The notes under the pieces were generated by a model. It worked only from the letters and a program-made list of their open reading frames with translations. It did no database searches and had not been told where the DNA came from. 64,000 nt of DNA. It comes from Streptomyces sp. NBC_01262 (GTDB lineage: Bacteria; Actinomycetota; Actinomycetes; Streptomycetales; Streptomycetaceae). Shown here piece by piece: positions 1,643 through 11,797 of this stretch. How positions within the stretch are numbered: position 1 is the stretch's first letter; each line of letters begins with the position of its first letter. Position numbers and translations under genes: made by a program. Location: contig NZ_CP108462.1 of NCBI RefSeq assembly GCF_036226365.1, positions 7,720,501 to 7,784,500 on the forward strand, written 5' to 3'.

Positions 1643-2572
1643 CTACGTGTCGCACTCCAGCACCGTCCGGCACAGCCCGCACCGCGCCCTCACCCGGCCC
1701 CGCACCGGCACCCGGATCCGCTGATGGCAGGTCGGGCAGGGGAACGAGACCCGCAGCGGCCCGGACAGCCCCCGGCCCTCGAAGGCGTAACCGGCGGAGG
1801 GCAGGGCGGTGCCGGAGCGGCGGTCCTTCGCGTAACGTCGCCGCCCGGCCCAGCCGCAGGCGAGCATCGGCGCGCGGCGCAGGTCCTGCCGGGCGACCGC
1901 CAGCCCGGCCCGGTAGGCGTCGCGGGCCTGGGCACTGGTCAGCCAGGGCTCGATGTCGTCGCCGAAGGCCAGCGCCCGCTTGGCCAGGACGTAGCCGAAC
2001 TCCTCGGGCGTGAGATAGCCCAGCTTCGACGCGGACATCAGCACCCGCTCGCCGCGCCGCGCCGGCTCCTCGCGGTAGGAGTCCAGCAGGAGCCAGCCCG
2101 CGCCCAGGTAGGCGGTGGCGGTGTCGGTGAGGATCTCGTTGTCGCGCGTGCCGGGGAATTCCAGGTCGAGGCGGTGCAGGAAGACATGCATCACCTCATG
2201 GGCCAGGGCCGCGCCCACATCGCGGCGGTCCTCCTTGAAGCGCGCGTGCAGCTCGATGAAGTACTCCGGCCCGGCCGCCAGCTCCACATTGCCCGCGTGC
2301 ACCATGTCCCGGAAGCTCACCACCATCCGCGCCTCCGGCAGCCGGAAGTGCTGCACCATGACATGCGCGACGCGCTGAGCGCCCAGGTAGAGATCCTCCT
2401 CCGGCGGGAAGTCCACCGCCTCCGGGCGCACGCTCGCCGGGAAGCTGTCCACCATGTCGGACGACAGCCGTCTGTACAGCGCGGTCAGCGCGGCCCGGAT
2501 CGTGTCGAGGTGCGGGAAGCCGTGCACGATCGGGTTCGCTGCCGGGCTGCCCGGGTCTGGCTGCTGGGCCAC
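1643..2572 (-). CDS. HExxH zinc metallopeptidase with C-terminal zinc ribbon
   Basis: A 309-residue protein of no named family that I recognise. The motif HEVMH at 125-129 is followed by DNEILTD, which supplies a plausible third zinc ligand, so a gluzincin-like peptidase fold is likely. The C-terminus has CPTC and CGLC pairs (about 285-303) that form a zinc ribbon, perhaps for binding nucleic acid or protein. There is no signal peptide or membrane segment, so it is probably cytoplasmic. It lies 40 bases downstream of, and on the same strand as, the serpin-methyltransferase gene, so the two may be co-transcribed. The peptidase call rests on the metal motif; the substrate is unknown. Confidence 0.65.
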   Translation of the reverse strand: MAQQPDPGSPAANPIVHGFPHLDTIRAALTALYRRLSSDMVDSFPASVRPEAVDFPPEEDLYLGAQRVAHVMVQHFRLPEARMVVSFRDMVHAGNVELAAGPEYFIELHARFKEDRRDVGAALAHEVMHVFLHRLDLEFPGTRDNEILTDTATAYLGAGWLLLDSYREEPARRGERVLMSASKLGYLTPEEFGYVLAKRALAFGDDIEPWLTSAQARDAYRAGLAVARQDLRRAPMLACGWAGRRRYAKDRRSGTALPSAGYAFEGRGLSGPLRVSFPCPTCHQRIRVPVRGRVRARCGLCRTVLECDT

Positions 2573-2612: not shown

Positions 2613-4724
2613 TTACGCGTCGATCCAGGCCGTCGTCGCCGTTCCCGGAGGGCCGTCCCCCGTTGCCGCGCCGGTCGCCCAGATGCCCGCCTCCGCCATC
2701 CGCTCGGCGGCGGACACGTCCCCGCCCCCGGTGGGCTGGTAGACGCTCAGCAGCACCCGCCCGCCGGGCTCGGCCAGCCCCCGGACATGCCGTATGAGCT
2801 CGCCCAGCCGGGCCCGGGGCACGCAGTCGGCCAGCACATGGACGAACGTGAAGCGCCGCCCGTCCGCCGGGCGCCAGTCCAGCGCGTTCCCCTCCTCGAT
2901 CCGGTCCGCCCAGTGCGGCAGCCGCCGCCGGGCCAGAGCGACCAGGCCGGGGGCGAGGTCGATCCCGTACGGCTCCACCGACCGGCCCCGCTCGGCCGCC
3001 CACTCCCGTACGGACTCCATCAGCAGGCCGTTCGCGCAGCCGAGGTCCAGGAAGGTGCCGTCCCGGTGCAGCCCCTCGACGATCATCGAGCGGCGGGCCC
3101 GCCACTCCTGCGGCCCGCCGCCGAAGCCCGAGCCGCCCTCGGGGGTGCCGGCGCGCAGGTACGCGGGCTCCAGCAGCCGTACGTTGTCCGCGAAGTACGA
3201 GGCGTCGCTCTGCGCGCGGTAGGACCGGGCGGCGTCGAGCGCGGCGGTGAGGTCCGTGCCGGGCAGCAGGACCCCGGCCAGCGCCTCGGGGGGCTCGGCC
3301 ACCAGCGCGGCGTCCGCGTGCGGGCGCGGGCCGGTGTAGCGGTCGCCCTCCAGCCAGACGAAGAGGTGCTGCCGCTCGGCGTCGTACGCGAAGGGATGCA
3401 CCCGTTGCGGCCGGAATCCGGCGGTCTCCATCGGCACGCGCACAGAGGTGTCCAGCAGCCAGTGCTCGCCGGGGAGCACCTCGCCGGACGGCAGCACGAG
3501 ATCCCCGTCGTCGATCAGCGCACACCGCCCGTCCGGCAGGAACGGCACGAAGGTGATCCGCCGCACGGCATCCGGGTCGGGGTCGTGCTCGGTCAGCTCG
3601 TACGGCCCGGGCAGCGGATCGCGGGGGACGGCGGCCTGCCAGGCCGTGAACAGCGGCACCTCACCGGCCGCGTCCAGGACGACGATCCCGAAGGGCCGGT
3701 CGAAACGGATGCGCTCGACCCGCCGGACCGGCGCGGCACCACCCGGCGCCATCGCCACCAGGGTCGCGGCGGCCGCCTCGACGCCCTTCTCGGCGATCCG
3801 CAGCACCGCCTCCTGTGCCACCTCGCCGATCTTGAGCCGCTCCGGCGACATCACGGAGAAGTCCGCGGCGTCCGACGCGGACCGGGCGATGCCCAGCGCC
3901 GCGAGGTGGTCGGTCACCTCCAGCCGCGTGCGCAGGGACAGCCGGGGGAGTGAGATCTCGACCTCCTCCGCGTCCACCGGCCCGCGCAGGGCGGGCGCGG
4001 CCCAGGCATCGGCCAGTACGGCCCCCGCCTCCCGTCCCGGCTCGCCGAGCACGAAGCGCACCCGGGCCCCGGGCCTCCCGCCGTCCGCACGGCAGCGCAG
4101 TTCGACGACACGGGACGCGCCCACCGTCCAGGCATCCGCGAGCGGCACCCGCTTCCACATGGTCGGCACGGGCTCACGGACACCCGAGGCATCAGTGAAC
4201 GGCCGGTGATGCGTGGCATGCGGCTCGAACGGCTCGGCCCAGCGGGCCCTGAGCACGATCGCGTTGACCAGCAGCAGCAATGTCCCGGGGCCCGGCTCGG
4301 CGGGCAGCCGCTCGATCAGCCCGCCGGTCGCCTCGCGCACCCAGTCGTCGATCGCCGACAGGTCCGCCGGGTCGAGCTGCCCGAAACCGATGTCCGGCAG
4401 CGACTCGCGGTAGGACCGGTACACCGGCGTGCGCGCCCACACCCCGGTCGCCACCGCCACCGCGTCCGTCCCCGCCACCGCCCGGGCCGCCTCCGTCACC
4501 GCCCCCGCCGCCTCCGGCCCGGCCGTGCCCAGCAGCTTGCGCAGCTCCTCCGCCGTCTCGCCCCCGGCGCCCGCGGCCGCGGCCGCCAGCGCGAGCCACA
4601 GACCGGCCGGCGAGCACGCGAAGTCCCCGCCCCCCTCGCCGCTCCCGCCCGCCACGATCGGCAGCCAGCGGCAGGCCAGCTCCTGAATCGCCCCCGCATG
4701 CCCCGTCAGCGCGTCCTGTGCCAT
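2613..4724 (-). CDS. serpin / Nudix-like / SAM methyltransferase fusion
   Basis: One uninterrupted frame of 703 residues. The ATG at 4724 is chosen because GAGGGGG lies 7 bases upstream; the frame stays open further upstream but that part does not look coding. Residues 1-367 are a complete serpin: a reactive-loop hinge EKGVEAAAAT at 312-321 (position P14 is Val rather than Thr/Ser) and the serpin end motif FDRPFGIVVLD at 341-351. Residues about 388-475 resemble a Nudix-type fold without a recognisable Nudix box. Residues about 500-703 are a class I methyltransferase with motif I FLDLGCANG at 558-566. There is no signal peptide, so it should act in the cytoplasm. The serpin would trap a serine or cysteine protease; the methylated substrate is unknown. 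A GTG near residue 387 could start a separate methyltransferase product. Confidence 0.75.
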   Translation of the reverse strand: MAQDALTGHAGAIQELACRWLPIVAGGSGEGGGDFACSPAGLWLALAAAAAGAGGETAEELRKLLGTAGPEAAGAVTEAARAVAGTDAVAVATGVWARTPVYRSYRESLPDIGFGQLDPADLSAIDDWVREATGGLIERLPAEPGPGTLLLLVNAIVLRARWAEPFEPHATHHRPFTDASGVREPVPTMWKRVPLADAWTVGASRVVELRCRADGGRPGARVRFVLGEPGREAGAVLADAWAAPALRGPVDAEEVEISLPRLSLRTRLEVTDHLAALGIARSASDAADFSVMSPERLKIGEVAQEAVLRIAEKGVEAAAATLVAMAPGGAAPVRRVERIRFDRPFGIVVLDAAGEVPLFTAWQAAVPRDPLPGPYELTEHDPDPDAVRRITFVPFLPDGRCALIDDGDLVLPSGEVLPGEHWLLDTSVRVPMETAGFRPQRVHPFAYDAERQHLFVWLEGDRYTGPRPHADAALVAEPPEALAGVLLPGTDLTAALDAARSYRAQSDASYFADNVRLLEPAYLRAGTPEGGSGFGGGPQEWRARRSMIVEGLHRDGTFLDLGCANGLLMESVREWAAERGRSVEPYGIDLAPGLVALARRRLPHWADRIEEGNALDWRPADGRRFTFVHVLADCVPRARLGELIRHVRGLAEPGGRVLLSVYQPTGGGDVSAAERMAEAGIWATGAATGDGPPGTATTAWIDA

Positions 4725-4850
4725 GCCGTTCCCCCTCGGCCGAACCGCTGCCGGGCCCCCGTAGCCCGCCCAGCGTCCAGCTGATGGAAACCGTACAAGC
4801 CACCTCTGACATCTGGCTCCCGCCTTTGTCACGTGTGTGACGATCACTGG

Positions 4851-5591
4851 ATGGAAGAGCCACTGCCGGGCGGCAACGTGACCGAGGTCGTACGCATCGG
4901 GGACACGGTCCGGAGGCCGCCGGGGGAGCGGGCGGCGTACGTACGCGAGGTGCTCGGGCTGCTCGGGACGGCCGGATGGTCCGGCGCGCCGCGCCACCTC
5001 GGCACGGACGAGCGCGGCCGGGAGGTGCTGTCGTACATCGACGGGCACGTGGCGTGGAAGGCGCTGCAGCCCGCGTCGGTCATCGGCGAGGAGAGCCTGG
5101 CGGAGGCGGCCCGGCTGACGCGGCAGTTCCACGACCTGACGGCGGGTACGCCGCCGGCGGAGGGCGGCGAGGTGGTGTGCCACAACGACCTGTCCCCGAG
5201 GAACACGGTCTACCGGGACAAGGGGCGGGGGCTGCGGCCGGTCGCCTTCATCGACTGGGACCTCGCCTCACCCGGCCTGCGCGTGCACGACGTCGCGCAT
5301 GTCTGCTGGCAGTTCTGCGGGACGGGCTCGCCGGTGTTCTGGCCGGAGGAAATCGGCCTGCGCATGCGGCTGGTCGCCGAGTCGTACGGGCTCGCCGACC
5401 AGGACCGGGAGCGCCTGGTGGAGACGGTGATGTGGTGGCAGGACCGGTGCTGGCGCGGCATCGACCGGCTCGCGGACGCGGGTGACCCGGCCATGACGCG
5501 GCTGAGGGACGACGGCGCGGTCGCCTCCGTGCGGGCGGCGTACGACTGGACGGCCGCGCACCGCACGCTGCTCGATCGGCACGTGCGGTGA
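4851..5591 (+). CDS. aminoglycoside phosphotransferase (APH)-family kinase
   Basis: A 246-residue small-molecule kinase fold. The catalytic loop CHNDLSPRNTVY has the Brenner-type His111, Asn112 and Asp113, and FIDWDLASPG carries the metal-binding Asp135. The family phosphorylates hydroxyls of aminoglycosides, choline, homoserine and similar compounds; nothing here fixes the substrate, and resistance should not be assumed. A GTG at 4833 would add six residues; ATG 4851 is preferred because the match to family N-termini is better, though no clear ribosome binding site is seen for either. It is divergent from the serpin fusion gene. An imperfect dyad GTCACGTGTGTGAC at 4828-4841 sits just upstream. 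Confidence 0.75.
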   Translation: MEEPLPGGNVTEVVRIGDTVRRPPGERAAYVREVLGLLGTAGWSGAPRHLGTDERGREVLSYIDGHVAWKALQPASVIGEESLAEAARLTRQFHDLTAGTPPAEGGEVVCHNDLSPRNTVYRDKGRGLRPVAFIDWDLASPGLRVHDVAHVCWQFCGTGSPVFWPEEIGLRMRLVAESYGLADQDRERLVETVMWWQDRCWRGIDRLADAGDPAMTRLRDDGAVASVRAAYDWTAAHRTLLDRHVR

Positions 5592-8984: not shown

Positions 8985-10385
8985 ATGCCACCCCACCCGG
9001 ATCTCGCCGGAGGCGTCGAAGGGACCGGCCACCTGCGGCCGCTGCTGGAGACCGTGCTCGACGCGCTCGCCCAGGGCGCCACGGCCCGGGGCGGGCCCAT
9101 GCCGGCCGGCGGGCCGGAAGCGGTCACCCGGCGCGTGCAGGCGGCCTGCGGAGAGGCGATCCCGGACACCGGCGAGGGCGCACAGGCGGCGCTGCGCAGA
9201 TACGTACGCGCGCTGGCCGAGGGCGCCGCAGACCCGGCGGACCCGCTGTGCGCGGCGCACCTGCACGCGCCGCCGCTGGCGGCGGCCGTCGCGGCGGACC
9301 TGGCGGCGGCCGTCCTCAACCCGTCCCTCGACTCGTGGGACCAGGCGCCCGCGGCGGCCACCATCGAGGCGGAGACCACCGCCGCGCTGGCCGCCCTGGT
9401 CTTCCCCGACCGGCCCGCGCCCGACGTGCTGGTCACCACCGGCGGCACCGAGTCCAACCAGCTCGCCCTCCTGCTGGCCCGCGAGCGCCACCCCGCCGCG
9501 CCCCTCCAGGTGGTCTGCGGGGCCAACGCCCACCACAGCATCCACCGCGCCGCCTGGCTGCTCGGGCTGCCCGAGCCCTTCACCATCCTCACGCCCACCG
9601 GCGTACTGGACCCGGCGGCCGTCGGCCACGCCCTCGCCGACATCTACGACCCCGCGCTGGTCGTCGCCACCGCCGGCACCACCGACACCGGCGCCATCGA
9701 CCCGATCCCCGAGATCGCCCAGGCCGCCGCCACCCACGGCGCCGAACTCCACATCGACGCGGCCTACGGCGGCTCCCTGCTCTTCAGCGACCGTCACGCG
9801 CACAAGCTCGACGGCCTGTCCAAAGCCGCCTCCGTCTCCCTCGACCTGCACAAACTCGGCTGGCAGCCGGTGGCCGCAGGGCTGTTCGCGGTCCCCGACG
9901 CAGCCGACCTCGCGCCGCTGGCCTACCAGGCGGACTACCTCAACGCCACCGACGACACCGAAGCCGGCCTGCCCGACCTCCTCGGCCGCTCGCTGCGCAC
10001 CACCCGGCGCCCCGACATCCTCAAAATCGCCGTCACCCTCAAAGCCCTGGGCCGCGAAGGCCTCGGCGCCCTCATCGACGCCGTCTGCGACCGCGCCCAC
10101 ACCCTCGCCGACCTCGTCGAACGGCACCCCGGGCTCGAACTCCACGCCCGCCCCACCATCAGCACCGTCCTGTTCCGCCCCGCCGGCGCCACCGACGAAC
10201 AGGTCGCCGCCATCCGCCGCCGGCTGATGGACGAAGGCCGAGCCGTCCTCGGCCGCGCCGCCGCCGACGGCCGGCTCTGGCTCAAGGCCACCCTGCTCAA
10301 CCCCGGCACGCGCACCGAAGACCTGGCAACGCTCCTCAGGCTCACCACGGAACCCACGGCACCCACGGAAGGCCCGACCCGATGA
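8985..10385 (+). CDS. PLP-dependent lysine decarboxylase-like (DesA-like)
   Basis: A 466-residue group II pyridoxal-phosphate decarboxylase. The phosphate-binding TTGGTESN is at 151-158, the cofactor-contacting HIDAAYGG at 256-263, and the Schiff-base lysine is Lys290 in SLDLHKLGWQP. The start has AAAGGA 8 bases upstream. The family includes DesA (lysine to cadaverine) and diaminobutyrate decarboxylases. The overlapping downstream gene for a lysine/diamine N-hydroxylase makes a DesA-like role in hydroxamate siderophore precursor supply most likely. No desC or desD homologue follows, so the product must be completed elsewhere or differs from desferrioxamine. Confidence 0.82.
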   Translation: MPPHPDLAGGVEGTGHLRPLLETVLDALAQGATARGGPMPAGGPEAVTRRVQAACGEAIPDTGEGAQAALRRYVRALAEGAADPADPLCAAHLHAPPLAAAVAADLAAAVLNPSLDSWDQAPAAATIEAETTAALAALVFPDRPAPDVLVTTGGTESNQLALLLARERHPAAPLQVVCGANAHHSIHRAAWLLGLPEPFTILTPTGVLDPAAVGHALADIYDPALVVATAGTTDTGAIDPIPEIAQAAATHGAELHIDAAYGGSLLFSDRHAHKLDGLSKAASVSLDLHKLGWQPVAAGLFAVPDAADLAPLAYQADYLNATDDTEAGLPDLLGRSLRTTRRPDILKIAVTLKALGREGLGALIDAVCDRAHTLADLVERHPGLELHARPTISTVLFRPAGATDEQVAAIRRRLMDEGRAVLGRAAADGRLWLKATLLNPGTRTEDLATLLRLTTEPTAPTEGPTR

Positions 10386-11797
10386 CGACCGCCCCGGCAG
10401 CCCCGGCCGCGCAAGACCAGCCCCTCGACCTCCTCGGCATCGGCATCGGCCCCTTCAACCTCTCCCTCGCCGCCCTGGCGGACCGCCTCCCCGCCCTGCG
10501 CACCGCCTTCTACGACCAGCGCCCCGCCTTCCACTGGCACCCCGGCCTGCTCATCGACGGCACCACCCTCCAAGTCCCCTTCCTCGCCGACCTCGTCACC
10601 CTCGCCGACCCCGCCAGCCCCTGGACCTTCCTCAACTACCTCAAGTCCCGCGACCGGCTCTACCCCTTCTACGTCGCCGAGCGATTTCACATCCAACGGG
10701 CCGAATACGACGCCTACTGCCGCTGGGTCGCCCAATCCCTCCCCACCACCCGATTCGGCCACCAGGTCGACACCGTCCGCTGGAACCCCGGCCGGAGCCA
10801 GTTCGAGGTCGACCACACCCAGCTCGACACCAACGGCGAAGCCGAGGCCCTCGGCCGCACCCACGCCCGCAACCTCGTCATCGGCATCGGCACCACCCCC
10901 TACATCCCCGAACCGCTGCGACCCCTCGCCGAAGCCCCCACCGTCCCCGTCGTCCACTCCGCCGACTACCTCAGGCAGCGCGAACGCCTCCTGACCACCC
11001 CCCACGTCACCGTCGTCGGCTCCGGCCAGTCCGGCGCCGAGGTCTTCCTCGACCTCCTGCGGACCCGCCCCGCCGGCGCCGAGGGCCTGACCTGGATCGC
11101 CCGCACCCCCGCCTTCGCCCCCATGGAATACAGCAAGCTCGGCCTGGAACAGTTCACCCCCGACTACACCCGCTACTTCCACGACCTCGCCGAACCCGTA
11201 CGCGACCGGCTCGTCCCCCAGCAGTGGCAGCTCCACAAGGGCATCGACCACGACACCATCAACGCCATCCACGAAGAGCTCTACCGCCGCACCCTCGACG
11301 GCGGCTGGCCCGACGTCACCCTCACCCCCGGCGTCAGCGTCCGCACCGCCGGCCGCCTCGGCACCAACGCCATCGAGCTCCACCTCGAACACGAGCAGCA
11401 GGGCGTACGCACCCGGCTGACCACCAACGCCGCCGTCCTCGCCACCGGATACCGCGAACGCCCCCTCGACCAGCTCCTCGCCCCCCTGGAGCCGTACATC
11501 CGCCGCGACAGCGCCGGCCGCCCCCGCATCGGGCTCGACCACCGCCTCGACCTCGACCCCTCCATTCAGGGCGCCGGCATCTACGTACAGAACGCCGAAC
11601 GCCACACCCACGGCGTCGGCGCCCCCGACCTCGGCCTGGCCGCCTGGCGCTCCGCCGTCATCCTCAACGCCGTCACGGGCGCTCAGCCCTACCCGCTGCC
11701 GTCGCGAACCGCCTTCACCACCTTCGGGCTTCAGCCCGCGCCCGTCACCGTGCCCGCTACCGCTTCCGCACGGCACGCAGGTATTCACGGTTCATAG
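10382..11797 (+). CDS. lysine/diamine N6-hydroxylase (DesB/IucD-like)
   Basis: A 471-residue flavin N-hydroxylating monooxygenase. The FAD motif [12 protein letters not shown] is near residue 20, a second dinucleotide motif [11 protein letters not shown] binds NADPH, and ATGYRERP near the C-terminus is the family signature. It hydroxylates the terminal amine of lysine or cadaverine, the step before acylation to a hydroxamate. The ATG overlaps the stop of the decarboxylase gene (ATGA), so the two are translationally coupled. Its last 41 bases overlap the end of sdhB on the opposite strand, so the pair ends here. The C-terminus runs slightly past the conserved domain. Confidence 0.85.

Follow-up and report, generated by a model that had tools for sequence, protein, structure and literature searches.

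Is a bacterial serpin that shares one open frame with a methyltransferase a real protein, and, if so, does one part of the chain govern the other? On the minus strand of the window (the whole stretch of 64,000 nucleotides analysed here), a stop-free open frame of 703 residues runs from an ATG at 4724 to a stop at 2613–2615. A preliminary description had read it as a serpin followed by a Nudix-like segment and a methyltransferase, and both the frame and the Pfam matches agree with that reading; the landmarks it had placed, EKGVEAAAAT at residues 312–321, FDRPF at 341–345 within an end motif at 341–351, and FLDLGCANG at 558–566, are likewise correct. The features of the gene and of its downstream neighbor are as follows.

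2613..4724, minus strand: fused gene, 703 aa, serpin, Nudix-like segment and putative class I methyltransferase (open frame; Pfam; counterpart in A. rubida)
3624..4724, minus strand: serpin domain, residues 1–367 (Pfam Serpin; thermopin 1SNG; Foldseek)
3762..3791, minus strand: serpin hinge EKGVEAAAAT, residues 312–321 (mean majority frequency 0.90 in 21 serpins)
3711..3761, minus strand: reactive centre loop, residues 322–338 (low pLDDT; hypervariability)
3672..3704, minus strand: serpin C-terminal motif FDRPFGIVVLD, residues 341–351 (sequence; R343–G346 invariant in 21 serpins)
3603..3626, minus strand: junction, residues 367–374, end of the serpin and start of the Nudix-methyltransferase without its start codon (stand-alone relatives)
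3255..3605, minus strand: Nudix-fold segment without catalytic Nudix box, residues 374–490 (AlphaFold2; Foldseek; box residues)
2616..3212, minus strand: putative class I SAM-dependent methyltransferase, residues 505–703 (Pfam Methyltransf_25; motif I conservation)
3027..3053, minus strand: SAM motif I FLDLGCANG, residues 558–566 (sequence; conservation)
1643–2572, minus strand: M78/IrrE-like gene (HEVMH metalloprotease motif; zinc-ribbon-like C-terminal end)

The serpin–methyltransferase fusion in Actinacidiphila is genuine and old. A search for other chains carrying both domains, as the preliminary description had proposed, recovered a second one among 35 genomes of the genus: A. rubida (G013, L003/L100) encodes the whole fusion in an open frame, at about 61% identity. 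The two junctions match in length and place (AVPRDPLPG-PYELTEHDPDPDAVRR beside SAPAGPEPP-AYALDEEEPPEVRR), and the gene order pepN, fused gene, M78-like gene is common to both, with two additional genes between pepN and the fusion in the window. A sequencing or assembly artefact, in which a missed stop or frameshift had joined adjacent genes, is therefore rejected as next to impossible, given that the separately sequenced A. rubida has the same fused frame with a matching junction. The preliminary description had also allowed that all close homologs might be two separate genes; the A. rubida homolog is fused.

Both parents of the fusion exist as separate genes, and they define its junction: stand-alone serpins terminate at or near the equivalent of residues 367–372, and stand-alone Nudix-methyltransferases mostly start with M(P/T)YRL, equivalent to residues 373–375. 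Many Streptomycetaceae carry the serpin as a gene of its own, in one case, from another genus (G040), also situated between pepN and the M78-like gene. The fused copy is the sole serpin found in the window genome. The stand-alone Streptomycetaceae serpins (L060, L061–L065) are about 54–62% identical to the fused one over the domain and carry the same hinge and the same G41/Q304, but end where the serpin fold ends, at about 360–405 aa, without a methyltransferase; no other serpin frame from the examined loci exceeds 453 residues. Outside the genus, actinobacteria carry the Nudix-methyltransferase as a separate gene of about 330 residues, found in Micromonospora, Actinoplanes, Actinocatenispora, Thermoactinospora, Microlunatus and others, with no serpin in the flanks examined (up to 6 kb a side). 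Its representatives in Micromonospora mirobrigensis (L099) and Actinoplanes (L101) are collinear with residues 374–703, at up to about 61% identity, and, unlike the fused part, have their own start codon. Some Nudix-methyltransferases (L114, L115, L116 and also L111), from Propionibacteriaceae-type hosts and one Acidimicrobiales, bear an extra N-terminal stretch (LDQARRRAKELL...GFxSWxxLVR), which is another fusion of the same enzyme.

What kind of serpin is this? Pfam Serpin (PF00079) matches residues 33–360 with an E-value of 6.7e-43 and a score of 147.8 bits (cut-off 27), thermopin (1SNG) is the nearest solved structure by sequence (E 5.5e-24), and Foldseek matches the domain to relaxed serpins at E about 1e-26. 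No signal peptide is evident on residues 1–367. The hinge follows the inhibitory consensus from P17 to P8, with small residues at P12–P9, and E312, G314, E316 and A317 are invariant in 21 serpins. Behind it, the nominal P1–P1' pair is G328–G329, as placed by canonical spacing, and the reactive loop is variable (mean majority frequency 0.55 over residues 322–337 in the 21 serpins, against 0.73 for the whole serpin); in the AlphaFold2 model, residues 327–338 are disordered, with pLDDT below 50. A variable reactive loop behind a canonical hinge is what would be expected if the loops follow different proteases, and counts for inhibition. In the same model residues 314–325 form a strand, and cleaved or latent serpins make up most of the best Foldseek matches; the model thus shows the loop-inserted form.

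The shutter points the other way. In antitrypsin numbering, mapped by alignment in this analysis, S53, N186 and W194 are kept as S38, N154 and W162, but S56 is replaced by G41 and H334 by Q304 in 21 of 21 serpins, so that the serpin may not inhibit proteases and is possibly non-inhibitory altogether. Within Group U, Spence et al. (2021) described a Streptomyces clade whose breach and shutter are off the consensus; its members, many of which retain the hinge, may be non-inhibitory (PMC8233489). The characterized Group U serpin thermopin from Thermobifida fusca (PDB 1SNG/1MTP) aligns along the whole serpin domain, with hinge, N186 and W194 kept; the fused serpin differs from it in having G and Q for S56 and H334, and in that an enzyme of 330 residues follows its C terminus in place of thermopin's short tail. 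By this similarity to thermopin it is a candidate member of Group U.

Pfam gave no substantial match for the middle segment. Modeled alone, the segment reached an AlphaFold2 pLDDT of 94.6, and all of its 50 best PDB matches in Foldseek are Nudix hydrolases, with E-values from 4.5e-5 to 5.8e-4. The segment thus shares its fold with Nudix hydrolases, but it departs from their box, GX5EX7REUXEEXGU: E420 is invariant and R429 is conserved at 0.9, while the glutamates of RE and EE correspond to V430, E433 (0.45) and T434. The preliminary description, which had seen a Nudix-like region lacking the Nudix box, is borne out on both counts, the box RE and the metal-binding glutamates being unconserved. 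Because the segment is present in the stand-alone family too, it belongs to the methyltransferase and is not a linker made by the fusion.

Judged by motif I and a Rossmann-like predicted fold, the C-terminal part is a class I SAM-dependent methyltransferase. Pfam Methyltransf_25 matches residues 559–655 with 27.7 bits, barely above the cut-off of 27; motif I is invariant in 17 relatives, except for V or L at position 561; and AlphaFold2 models this part confidently as alternating helices and strands. A search for its substrate in Pfam and NCBIfam gave weak, unspecific matches and no substrate-defined family over its cut-off, and when the methyltransferase alignment was searched against PDB sequences, the best match was 7pd7 (E 6e-4), pointing to no function.

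How did the two parts come together? The history of the locus can be followed through a short element upstream of the fused gene.

4786..4799, minus strand: conserved element CTTGTACGGTTTCC upstream of the fused gene (shared by six Actinacidiphila genomes)

In the form CTTGTACGGT, the element precedes an intact locus gene in all six genomes, but the gene behind it differs: the fused gene in the window genome and A. rubida (G000 and G013), the serpin alone in S. acidipaludis (G002), and the methyltransferase alone in G010, G026 and G008. In G026 and G008 the start context, ggccgaggggg(a)acggcATG, is that of the fused gene and leads directly into the Nudix part. The element is absent before all other serpins and Nudix-methyltransferases examined, including the relocated methyltransferase of S. 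acidipaludis, and survives as a lone relic in G029, G032 and G016 (L079 and L082 among these loci). With one mismatch allowed it is single-copy in the window genome, and a role as a general operator was rejected on the grounds of this single match.

The other end of the unit has left traces as well. Behind the serpin of S. acidipaludis, outside any gene, stands the end of the methyltransferase reading frame, GDGAPGTATTARCDA with the stop, and the same 3' relic precedes the M78-like gene in G003, G017, G022, G031 and G033; when relic scores were compared with 300 shuffles per genome, 0–1 shuffles reached the score of the relic. G014 holds the C-terminal part of the methyltransferase only. The methyltransferase of S. 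acidipaludis has been relocated and now has a tRNA-Gly gene at a distance of about 280 bp (L056:9244–9314, 9596–10612), as after integration or transfer. The shared upstream DNA and the 3' relics argue that serpin and methyltransferase were very probably already one transcription unit early in the genus, which then underwent piecemeal loss. The patterns indicate loss of the serpin part in three species and of the methyltransferase at the locus in one, with a fragment kept in another and scraps in others. A TAGGCT box, a possible M78 promoter, overlaps the stop codon of the methyltransferase, and this overlap may be why the 3' relic was retained.

Since the fused forms fall in different clades of both domain trees, one fusion event is the simplest reading, by parsimony and not as proof. 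A separate fusion in each of the two lineages, that of the window strain and that of A. rubida, would be compatible with any of the functional readings discussed below, and both domain trees group A. rubida with S. acidipaludis, a species that has the serpin and the methyltransferase apart. The 3' relic behind the S. acidipaludis serpin, however, implies that the methyltransferase was lost from the locus there, and the two fused genes have junctions alike in length and place as well as a common upstream element; we regard two events as quite improbable.

What, then, does the fusion do? Over the whole chain AlphaFold2 gave a mean pLDDT of 88.6 but a pTM of 0.58, so the prediction is good for each domain but not for how the domains are placed; no confident interface was found between them. 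A pTM of this size beside confident domains is what a flexible tether would be expected to give. Somewhat better than even, and the most likely of the readings, is that the genuine fusion consists of two loosely tethered modules under one promoter, on a predicted 75-kDa chain. We propose that a Nudix-fold methyltransferase gene landed at the pepN/M78 locus early in Actinacidiphila, behind a cytoplasmic serpin gene already resident there, and that the two would have been joined in frame with both parents kept whole and a short linker between them. The serpin would lure and trap a serine protease of the cytoplasm, the Nudix fold, devoid of the hydrolase residues, might be the ligand- or substrate-binding part of the methyltransferase, and the tether would provide co-expression and co-location rather than form a rigid allosteric machine. 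Against this reading, the fused form is retained in only 2 of the 35 genomes, which suggests that the joining of the modules is selected weakly or in particular lineages, and the shutter substitutions put the role of the serpin as a trap in doubt. The same rarity, together with the repeated loss of either half at the locus, would also fit an accidental, nearly neutral read-through fusion, with a shared promoter, a lost stop codon and a chain that works as two parts. We consider this rather unlikely, as a useless joint chain would hardly have kept its frame open and its motifs intact in two species at their level of divergence (about 61% identity).

Could the serpin instead operate the methyltransferase? 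A protease cutting the loop near residue 328 would drive the serpin from the stressed to the relaxed state and thereby turn the Nudix-methyltransferase on or off; such cleavage would break the covalent link from the serpin body to the methyltransferase piece, which would then be held by the C-terminal strands only. The canonical hinge, the variable loop and the loop-inserted form of the model are in keeping with this possibility, and the C-terminal tail of thermopin is packed against the breach, which tops sheet A (PMC8233489), so that a partner fused at the C terminus could lie close to the region that moves. Against it stand the lack of a confident domain interface, the substitution of both shutter residues in all 21 serpins, and the separate loss of the modules in relatives, where each half persists alone. 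A protease-operated switch is thus unlikely, and we are doubtful of the broader proposition that the shape change of the serpin on proteolysis sets the activity or location of the methyltransferase on the same chain, as a one-use relay from proteolysis to methylation in the bacterial cytoplasm. If true, the coupling of shape change to catalysis would be a new use of a serpin. The methyltransferase, as the serpin's partner, and its substrate may point to the process that the serpin serves, and the fused, serpin-only and methyltransferase-only relatives behind a common upstream element offer a natural comparison of the role of each half.

Multi-domain bacterial serpins are themselves known. Ruminococcus flavefaciens has cellulosomal dockerin–serpin proteins (PMC2930009), which are secreted and carry a non-catalytic docking module before the serpin; here, an enzyme follows the serpin and no signal peptide is evident. 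The preliminary description knew of no system of the present type, and our search of the open-access literature likewise returned no serpin joined to a methyltransferase. The combination is apparently a domain architecture new for serpins.

Among the neighboring genes, the M78-like gene occurs in all Actinacidiphila genomes tested and adjoins pepN in most, and its product matches no library family over its cut-off. We considered it as a dedicated protease partner of the fusion and rejected this because its presence is not specific: the gene occurs in 15 of 15 tested relatives without the Nudix-methyltransferase. The pepN–M78 interval seems to be a site where genes are gained and lost often. 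In G019 (L191) and G022 (L192) it holds about 5 kb of other genes, including a frame of about 1000 aa, and in G022 the methyltransferase 3' relic still stands before the M78-like gene. Divergent from the fused gene, at window positions 4869–5588 on the plus strand, lies an aminoglycoside-phosphotransferase-like kinase gene, and a gene of this kind also adjoins the methyltransferase in A. oryziradicis.
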